From the NCBI GenBank assembly GCA_013822735.1, contig PNKZ01000007.1, positions 62,001 to 126,000 of the forward strand: a DNA stretch of 64,000 nt. The letters are read 5' to 3'. A program made the translations under genes and the position numbers. The notes below the pieces were generated by a model. That model worked only from the letters and a program-made list of their open reading frames with translations. It was not told the origin of the DNA and ran no database searches. This DNA comes from Pirellula sp. Lineage in GTDB: Bacteria; Planctomycetota; Planctomycetia; Pirellulales; PNKZ01. Of this stretch, positions 9,607-11,197 are shown in pieces. Position 1 is the first letter of the stretch. Every line of letters begins with the position of its first letter.

Positions 9607-9967
9607 GGGGGCGAATTGGCATCGACCGGATGGCTAGAAGCGTTTGCGGCGTGCCGTGGTTGGTCGGCTGGCCACGTAAATAGCCGACCAAACAGTTATC
9701 TGCTGAAGATAGCTACGCTTTGGCCGCCTAGTAATAGGTTGCCCGGATTGAGAGCCTTCGTCGGAGAGGCTTGAAAGTCCGTTAACAATTCCGAATCGTC
9801 CCGGGCCAACCGCGGGGAACTCCCGGGACTAAAAACGTGCCCTGCTAACCTGAGAGGAACCGTGTCGCTGCGGGTCGCTCGGGTGAAGGCGTAAATGCAT
9901 GCGACTACGCACGTAGATGCAGCCGTGGAAACGTTACGGGACGCGGGTTCGATTCCCGCCGCCTCCA
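9607..9967 (+). ncRNA. ssrA: Transfer-messenger RNA (tmRNA)
   Basis: One-piece tmRNA of 361 nt; it rescues stalled ribosomes and tags the nascent chain for proteolysis. The 5' end GGGGGCG (9607-9613) pairs over 7 bp with CGCCTCC (9960-9966), followed by discriminator A (9967). The T-arm gcgggttcgattcccgc precedes the acceptor strand. The terminal CCA is not encoded. The tag frame starts at the Ala codon GCT 9702 and reads AEDSYALAA, ending in the double stop TAG TAA (9729-9734); a C-terminal ALAA is the usual protease signal. The last 18 nt plus one flanking base are repeated exactly at 11054-11072, marking this gene as an integration site. Tag residues are read directly; the resume codon is inferred by analogy. 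Confidence 0.95.
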
Positions 9968-9968
9968 T
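9950..9968 (+). repeat. att-like direct repeat, left copy (ssrA 3' end)
   Basis: cgattcccgccgcctccat, overlapping the T-arm and acceptor stem of ssrA and one base beyond. It is identical over 19 bp to 11054-11072. The 3' ends of tRNA and tmRNA genes are classic attachment sites for tyrosine recombinases, so this is read as attL of a small element. Confidence 0.75.
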
Positions 9969-9975
9969 TAAATCG

Positions 9976-10007
9976 CCCGTCTTAGGACTTCCTAAGATGG
10001 GTTTTTT
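9976..10007 (+). terminator. Intrinsic terminator after ssrA
   Basis: cccgtcttagg (9976-9986) pairs with cctaagatggg (9991-10001; one G-U pair), 4-nt loop, followed by six T (10002-10007). It starts 9 nt after the tmRNA 3' end. Confidence 0.85.
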
Positions 10008-10061
10008 ATTGGACTTACGACGCTCGACGCCGTAACGCTTTTTCTCCAGAATTAATGTTTG

Positions 10062-10093
10062 TTGTCCAATTTCGACGCCCCATTGTCCAATTT
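10062..10093 (+). repeat. TTGTCCAATTT repeats, upstream pair
   Basis: Two direct copies of TTGTCCAATTT at 10062-10072 and 10083-10093 (21-bp period), 35 bp before the ATP-grasp start. The same 11-mer occurs twice after the gene, in the same orientation. Confidence 0.85.
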
Positions 10094-10127
10094 GGGCACC
10101 GAAGTCCTCCTAAGGGTACGAAAAAAG

Positions 10128-10892
10128 ATGCGAGCATGGGTACAAGTCGTATCTCCGTCGACAAGCGTCTTCCTAGCTATGGAAGAAGCGGCCCATTGGT
10201 TTGGTCGGCGAGGATACGAAGTTGTTCGCTTCGAATTTGGCGACATCGATCAAGGCAAACTTGATGACGACCTGCAGAACTCACCGGATGAGATGGTGTT
10301 GCGAGGCGGGGTAGAGACAGTGCGAAAAGCACTGCTGAGGGCCGGGCGTCCGCTACCTCCCAATCTCGATCTCCCATCTTCGCTACAAGAATGGTTTGGA
10401 CGCCGTGTATGGAATACAACGTTGGGCGAGATCCGTTTCGCCGTAGAAAGCCCTGAGTTCGAACCGTGTCACATCAAGCCTTTGAATCACCACAAATTGT
10501 TTACTGGAACTGTGGTGCAGGCATTTCGTGACTTGATCCCAACTGCGTCCCTTCCAGACGACGTACCAATTCTTGCTCAGGGATACTTGGAGTTCGTTTC
10601 CGAGTGGAGAGTGTTTGTGCTTCGGAGACAACTACTTCACGTGGGACGCTACAAAGGCAATCCGTTGCTGTTTCCGGACGCCAGTGTCTTGCGCTCGGCA
10701 TTGAATTCGTTTGATGAGCAACCAATTGCATTCGGAATGGATTGGGGAATCACCAGTTGCGGAAAGACCCGCTTGGTTGAAGTAAATGACGGATACTCTT
10801 TGGGAAACTATGGGTTGCGTGGTGCTGACTACACGGCGATCATTGAAGCTCGTTGGCGAGAGTTGATGGGACTCTCAGATAGGCGAATTTGA
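10128..10892 (+). CDS. ATP-grasp protein, R2K clade (DUF4343-like)
   Basis: A 254-residue predicted cytoplasmic protein. Family-type motifs are HIKPLNHHKLFTG (about residues 121-133), YLEFVSEWRVFVL (about 163-175) with GRYKG after it, and the late metal/ATP-binding motif VEVNDGYSLGNYGL (about 224-237). These fit the R2K clade of ATP-grasp ligases related to CDC123, predicted to modify proteins or peptides and often found in phages and mobile DNA. The frame extends upstream to a TTG at 10059, but that part only translates the flanking repeats, so I chose ATG 10128. It is the only gene between the ssrA-end repeats and is low in GC. Substrate unknown. Confidence 0.75.
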   Translation: MRAWVQVVSPSTSVFLAMEEAAHWFGRRGYEVVRFEFGDIDQGKLDDDLQNSPDEMVLRGGVETVRKALLRAGRPLPPNLDLPSSLQEWFGRRVWNTTLGEIRFAVESPEFEPCHIKPLNHHKLFTGTVVQAFRDLIPTASLPDDVPILAQGYLEFVSEWRVFVLRRQLLHVGRYKGNPLLFPDASVLRSALNSFDEQPIAFGMDWGITSCGKTRLVEVNDGYSLGNYGLRGADYTAIIEARWRELMGLSDRRI

Positions 10893-10926
10893 CTTCTCTC
10901 CCCAGAGGTTGACTTACACCCTCGTA

Positions 10927-10959
10927 TTGTCCAATTTGGCGAGAACAATTGTCCAATTT
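10927..10959 (+). repeat. TTGTCCAATTT repeats, downstream pair
   Basis: Direct copies at 10927-10937 and 10949-10959 (22-bp period), 34 bp after the ATP-grasp stop, in the same orientation as the upstream pair. A separate 9-bp direct repeat, gtgttactc, is at 10981-10989 and 11043-11051 next to the right att copy. Confidence 0.85.
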
Positions 10960-11053
10960 GGTCAAAATTGAACGTTGAAAGTGTTACTCCTGTGGCGTCT
11001 TGAGATGCATGGAAAATCGGCGATTATTGGCGAAATCGAGTTGTGTTACTCGA

Positions 11054-11072
11054 CGATTCCCGCCGCCTCCAT
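11054..11072 (+). repeat. att-like direct repeat, right copy
   Basis: An exact 19-bp copy of the ssrA 3' end (9950-9968) with no tmRNA body before it. It is read as attR, or as the remnant of the original ssrA end. Confidence 0.75.
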
Positions 11073-11073
11073 C

Positions 11074-11112
11074 AAGGGGACATTCTGCGTTAAGTAGAAT
11101 GTCCCCTTTTCT
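11074..11112 (+). terminator. Intrinsic terminator next to right att copy
   Basis: aaggggacattct (11074-11086) pairs perfectly with agaatgtcccctt (11096-11108), 9-nt loop, followed by a T-rich stretch (ttcttttcc). It sits 1 nt after the right att copy, where the original ssrA terminator would be expected if the element had been inserted between gene end and terminator. The rest of 10893-11197 holds only the repeats described. Confidence 0.8.
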
Positions 11113-11197
11113 TTTCCTCCCCTTTTCTTTTCCTACATCGGCCGATCGCAGAACATTGAAGAGCGATTGAAGGTTCACCAATCCGGCGCCGCGGCAT

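Follow-up and report, generated by a model that had tools for sequence, protein, structure and literature searches.

The locus considered here raises the question of how a segment with one gene and no recombinase came to lie between two copies of the 3' end of ssrA, and whether such a segment could still be moved. It was analysed within a 64 kb stretch of DNA (the window), corresponding to positions 62,001-126,000 of the forward strand of contig PNKZ01000007.1 in the 6.88-Mb genome of Pirellula sp. GCA_013822735.1.

A duplicated tmRNA 3' end bounds a single gene

The following features define the insertion site and the two ends of the element:

9607..9967, + strand: ssrA (tmRNA; ARAGORN; Rfam RF00023, 162.6 bits), the integration target, whose 3' end is restored by the element
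9950..9968, + strand: left core repeat (attL), the tmRNA 3' end, 19-mer CGATTCCCGCCGCCTCCAT
9975..10002, + strand: inner, probably element-borne terminator, which now ends the tmRNA (fold z -7.2 over 9969-10010)
11054..11072, + strand: right core repeat (attR), the displaced tmRNA 3' end, 19-mer CGATTCCCGCCGCCTCCAT
11074..11108, + strand: outer terminator, beyond the element (fold z -9.3 over 11073-11115)

A sequence-only reading of this DNA had proposed that the final 19 bp of ssrA are repeated downstream, and the repeat is indeed exact, its second copy lying 1,104 bp downstream of the first; when flanking positions are included, the two cores match at 21 of 22. The same reading had named, as an observation that would speak against mobility, the occurrence of the 19-bp repeat as a widespread unrelated sequence, which was not encountered, as an 18-mer of the core has three copies genome-wide (attL, attR and an orphan at C5:300355), while shuffled-core controls score at most 13 against 19 for the present core. 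The 1.1 kb between the cores hold a single gene, encoding an R2K-clade ATP-grasp protein, and no recombination or transfer gene, in agreement with the earlier description of one gene without a recombinase.

The orphan copy, which comprises 24 bp of the tmRNA 3' end (C5:300349-300372), is not associated with a tRNA or tmRNA gene and adjoins a C-terminal fragment of a conventional tyrosine integrase (C5:300586-300708; L018:8350-8709). It looks like an insertion at a secondary site, and similar junctions of the core with CTGACAGTCG occur at G002:C402 and G006:C157.

The low GC content that had been remarked upon was confirmed, the element having a value of 0.496 compared to 0.60-0.62 in its flanks, and GC3 of the cargo gene is 0.52 versus 0.77 for the neighbouring uppP. 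The terminators that had been suggested for both ends were likewise recovered. Joining the flanks in silico generates a normal ssrA end with the outer terminator directly after it; the outer terminator, placed by this reconstruction, is therefore probably the original ssrA terminator, and the inner one was probably brought by the insert.

Paired repeats with the layout of integrase arm-type sites

What the sequence-only reading listed of the anatomy of the element was correct, yet it overlooked four copies of a short direct repeat:

10062..10072, + strand: arm-type-like repeat L1, TTGTCCAATTT
10083..10093, + strand: arm-type-like repeat L2, TTGTCCAATTT
10927..10937, + strand: arm-type-like repeat R1, TTGTCCAATTT
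10949..10959, + strand: arm-type-like repeat R2, TTGTCCAATTT

These are exactly the four copies present in the 6.88-Mb genome, all within the element and on the same strand, an arrangement with a chance of approximately 4e-12 of falling within 1.1 kb if positions are independent. The copies are spaced 21 bp in the left pair and 22 bp in the right pair, and start at +94 and +115 from the left core and at -127 and -105 from the right core. This layout matches that expected of integrase arm-type sites flanking a core, and a recombinase would be predicted to bind at these repeats.

Two of the copies precede the start codon of the cargo gene by 35-66 bp, as would suit operators regulating R2K, in which case the second ssrA end would be an unrelated partial duplication. 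Such a role is scarcely credible given that two identical copies lie past the stop codon, in the same orientation and spacing and at a mirror-like distance from the second core, and that the same layout is found at the recombinase genes of other elements (see below).

The cargo is an R2K-clade ATP-grasp gene

10128..10892, + strand: cargo gene, R2K-clade ATP-grasp (family 2), 254 aa (Pfam PF18299 4e-39, PF14243 2e-26)

The R2K_2 Pfam domain scores 134.3 bits, the curated cut-off being 26.2, which places the protein in R2K.2. The ATG at 10128 encodes the methionine at which homologues also begin, and a possible TTG start at 10059 was rejected; alignment with homologues shows that the frame is open and that conserved residues are kept. 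To our knowledge, within a non-exhaustive search, this is the first known case of R2K.2 as the sole cargo of an integrative unit.

Homologues of the cargo are present in eight of 397 genomes of the order, the source genome included, and absent from all six family relatives. In Pirellula, the R2K homologues reside in ordinary gene neighbourhoods. The sequence-only reading had suggested a search for the same cargo at ssrA elsewhere, and such a locus was looked for and not found. Seven homologue loci (L161-L167) were considered as fellow mini-elements and rejected, being devoid of tRNA genes or flanking att repeats, with the sole exception of the distant homologue at L166, whose repeats are chance-like. 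PADLOC matched the cargo to no defence family, a PDB sequence search with it returned no match, and its AlphaFold model (pLDDT 41) was too poor for use.

R2K enzymes are predicted peptide ligases that act on proteins in biological conflicts (PMC4431377). The PF18299 match of the present protein spans the catalytic region, and its sporadic distribution fits what has been published on the R2K.2 family (PMC4431377). The cargo product is thus predicted to be an ATP-dependent peptide ligase, which would ligate peptides to a protein target.

In the genome of one homologue, the R2K.2 gene forms part of a bacterial RNA-repair operon, in which Hen1 and Pnkp flank it (L008:2981-10244; gene order HD-AAA, Hen1, R2K, Pnkp ligase, Pth2), a context of which the searched text of PMC4431377 makes no mention and which hints at a link of R2K with protection of the translation apparatus.

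Integrative elements at ssrA in Pirellulales

The sequence following ssrA, to a maximum of 19 kb, was surveyed in approximately 80 Pirellulales genomes and comprised at least 1 kb at 72 loci; ssrA was found to be commonly occupied by integrative elements. A conventional tyrosine integrase of approximately 400 aa is encoded on the minus strand directly downstream of ssrA at 21 of the 72 loci, among them those of the congeners G004 and G005. A second core comparable to the present one occurs at only a handful of these 72 other loci, all of which bear an integrase; at four loci with an integrase of the ~400-aa type, the second core lies at 4.9, 8.9, 11.4 and 13.2 kb, the integrase always being present. 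Separately, the core located at 5.3 kb in L095 (G078) is degenerate and is accompanied by neither repeats nor a recombinase.

Elements with a ~400-aa integrase likewise feature, at either end, repeats in pairs of the same orientation. A spacing of 11-12 bp in the left pair was recorded at 15 of the 21 integrase-bearing loci compared to six of the 51 others (Fisher 1.3e-6), and none of the 21 had a spacing of 21-22 bp. Paired arm-like repeats are therefore a general feature, while the 21-22-bp spacing belongs elsewhere.

These data bear on the possibility that the present unit is mobilised by the ~400-aa ssrA integrases that are common in the genus (as in G004, G005 and G002), its repeats being unrelated to integration. 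The frequency of such integrases at ssrA, congeners included, and the shared core are consistent with this explanation, which we nevertheless hold to be very improbable: their own arm-like pairs differ from TTGTCCAATTT in sequence as well as in spacing, their integrase gene is in the opposite orientation, and none of the 13 PF00589 matches in the genome, which were rejected as helpers, has a TTGTCCAATTT-like pair beside it.

A class of elements encoding a ~580-aa recombinase-like protein

The ssrA loci with repeats spaced 21-22 bp possess instead a gene for a divergent tyrosine-recombinase-like protein of approximately 580 aa, located on the tmRNA strand and starting about 200 bp after ssrA. 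One member of this family matches PF00589 (1.4e-6) and the integrase family phrog_216 (1.6e-6). The alignment of the family profile with conventional integrases is weak (hhalign probability 40%, E 2.9e-4). A helix-turn-helix is present at the C-terminus. Further members were retrieved by a profile search of 248 genomes (L189-L208; examples are L144:755-2503, L122:771-2504 and L145:772-2481). ARAGORN detected a tDNA directly upstream of the gene at 17 loci (tmRNA at 12, and tRNA-Ser, -Ala or -Glu at five), and 16 of these 17 carry, at about +100/+122, a pair of repeats with the 21-22-bp spacing.

Catalytic arginine I is replaced by glycine in 18 of 19 aligned proteins, making their catalytic competence uncertain; the histidine of box II is also missing, while the box II arginine and the downstream histidine and tyrosine appear to be kept. 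At L122 (G088), 2475-3561 bp after ssrA, the ~580-aa gene is followed by a shorter relative in which the arginine is kept (NCGLRAVE), and the two proteins might work as a pair.

Regarding the right ends of this class, one is well supported (G164) and another is weaker (G065, 33.6 kb). The G164 element is 25.2 kb in length and its two right-end arms are 22 bp apart, in the same orientation, approximately 115 bp before a GATTCCCGCCGCCTCCA core. In G065, the right core of the ~580-aa element, about 33.6 kb after ssrA (L145/L234), coincides with the start of a conventional integrase gene, elements of two different classes thus standing in tandem at a single ssrA.

At six further loci (L153, L088, L116, L134, L121 and L146), the first 150-260 bp after ssrA resemble a left end of the ~580-aa type without an intact recombinase gene, a degraded fragment being present in L146 alone; no second core was found within 19 kb at any of the six, and these left ends could be remnants.

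A literature search of incomplete coverage returned no description of the ~580-aa class, and both this class and the 1.1-kb size of the present unit appear to be new.

Both ends of the mini-element match the ~580-aa class

The present unit displays the characteristic arrangement of this class in that direct repeats spaced 21-22 bp are positioned about 100 bp from the tDNA end (+94/+115), whereas the place of the recombinase gene, after the repeats on the tDNA strand, is held by the R2K gene. A DNA profile of the left ends of ~580-aa elements, built without the present locus, produced a single match in the window:

9982..10023, + strand: match to the left-end profile of ~580-aa elements (nhmmer E 8.7e-5, 17.3 bits)

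The profile gave no match of at least 10 bits on 2.97 Mb of shuffled or reversed control sequence, and its application to other planctomycete DNA yielded one locus at 12 bits, a hairpin near the right core of G164. Part of the profile score therefore reflects the terminator hairpin, a plain ssrA terminator reaching 12 bits, and the modest score of the present element is to be taken as supportive rather than decisive.

A GTCCAATT pair spaced 21-23 bp was detected in ten of 397 genomes, the present one included. Three of the nine others represent left ends of the ~580-aa class, at ssrA in G204 and G312 and at tRNA-Ala in G315, and the distance from the pair to the tDNA is 101-102 bp in these three compared to 96 bp in the present element; in the stretch examined of G312 no intact recombinase frame was found, and neither a tDNA nor a recombinase was seen in the remaining six. 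The right-end design, paired arms followed by the core, is common to G164 and the present element.

The unit therefore resembles the ~580-aa elements G204, G312, G315 and G164 in left-end layout and 21-22-bp spacing, in the GTCCAATT repeat of three of them and in the right-end layout of G164; it differs in that the two elements with identified right ends measure 25-34 kb and in that the class encodes a recombinase, which the unit lacks. In left end, repeat sequence, spacing and right-end layout the unit matches this class, from a member of which it may be derived, although no direct parent was found. Judged by its sequence, the present unit is one that carries both ends of the ~580-aa class, with an R2K gene in the place of the recombinase.

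A probable non-autonomous element dependent on a helper

From the presence of both class ends and of R2K in the recombinase's place we infer a non-autonomous miniature, which could be moved in trans by a recombinase of the class. In the proposed mechanism, the unit is a 1.1-kb non-autonomous integrative element in the ssrA 3' end, with ends of the ~580-aa type that comprise a tmRNA-derived core, a terminator of their own and paired same-orientation arm-type sites. A helper recombinase able to recognise arm sites of the GTCCAATT type would recombine the two cores with each other and release a circle with an attP of about 270 bp, which could re-insert into another ssrA, the tmRNA being restored each time. 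A profile search of the genome retrieved no member of the ~580-aa family, and for as long as no helper arrives the unit would presumably remain stable.

We consider it likely that the unit is a cis-mobilizable miniature of the ~580-aa class, dependent on a helper absent from the genome. The sequence-only reading had offered a non-autonomous element moved in trans as one of two possibilities, and the class cores, the paired repeats, the lack of the cargo in all six family relatives and the lack of a family recombinase in the genome support it, its mobility being deduced from these features. The comparison with related genomes that had been recommended was partly informative: each of the three congeners that were compared has one core copy at ssrA and lacks R2K, although other integrases occupy ssrA in two of them and the downstream flank of ssrA is syntenic in none of the three. 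No exact empty site was found, as the proteins encoded in the downstream flank do not adjoin ssrA at any of the loci surveyed, nor was a second copy of the unit.

The other possibility, a gene that stayed after the rest had decayed, is less favoured. It would make the unit an immobile remnant of an autonomous element that lost its recombinase and most of its cargo by internal deletion, R2K being kept by selection and the ends being fossil; such a history shares its origin with the helper-dependent reading and differs only on present competence. The absence of a helper from the genome agrees with it, as do the other ssrA loci with left ends and no intact recombinase gene, including L146 with its degraded fragment. 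Fossil ends should have diverged, however, whereas the cores are alike at 21 of 22 positions, the four 11-mers do not differ from one another, neither terminator is damaged and the cargo frame is open with its conserved residues, and a remnant is accordingly unlikely.

Beyond this locus, we tentatively propose, at somewhat less than even odds, that an undescribed class of Pirellulales elements targeting ssrA and tRNA genes, driven by a ~580-aa protein mostly without arginine I that would bind repeats two helical turns apart, yields MITE-like single-gene miniatures moved in trans, of which the present unit would be the first complete example.

Relation to known systems

Fifteen ssrA islands without an integration module have been reported in Dehalococcoides and proposed to be cis-mobilizable (CIMEs; PMC3146451), and the category is therefore already known. 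Those islands and the present unit, which as befits a CIME lies between the attL and attR that belong to one site, have in common ssrA and a 3' direct repeat as flanks, the lack of a recombinase and a proposed mobilisation through retained attL and attR. The Dehalococcoides islands are described as lying in tandem arrays beside serine-recombinase islands, in contrast to the present unit of 1.1 kb and one gene, which stands alone and has at both ends paired arm-like sites assigned to a tyrosine-recombinase-like class.

Integration at the tmRNA 3' end with a displaced fragment is also shared with the tDNA islands of Islander (PMC4383910) and with I23/I44/I55 of Pseudomonas (PMC12595487), in which an integrase is present by definition. 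Islander, the standard tool for finding tDNA islands, rejects candidates that are shorter than 2 kb or lack an integrase (PMC4383910); the present unit has the displaced tDNA fragment at its far end, but neither an integrase inside nor a length of 2-200 kb, and units of this kind would therefore have been missed.

The unit would illustrate how small an integrative unit at a tRNA/tmRNA site can be, consisting of an attP and one gene, with all cis signals (core, terminator and paired arm sites) kept at both ends. Attention is also drawn to a family of recombinase-like proteins whose active site is unusual and whose genes adjoin ssrA or tRNA genes in many Pirellulales. This offers a system in which to test which protein acts, through which residues and at which sites, and whether the packaging of single genes in this manner is routine.

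At the computed circle junction, the attP of approximately 270 bp is close in size to that of tDNA islands, given as ~250 bp (PMC4383910). As to similar motifs elsewhere, a paired motif in G161 lies between ordinary genes and was rejected as chance, and among approximately 15 viral contigs with paired TGTCCAATT-type motifs most of the pairs fall in coding or replication-origin-like regions, only L071 being an integrase attP. In the latter (L071:3082-3296), the attP of a phage tyrosine integrase, four GTGTCCAATT copies surround a tRNA-derived core, which is a suggestive independent case of the motif as likely arm sites, though possibly a coincidence.
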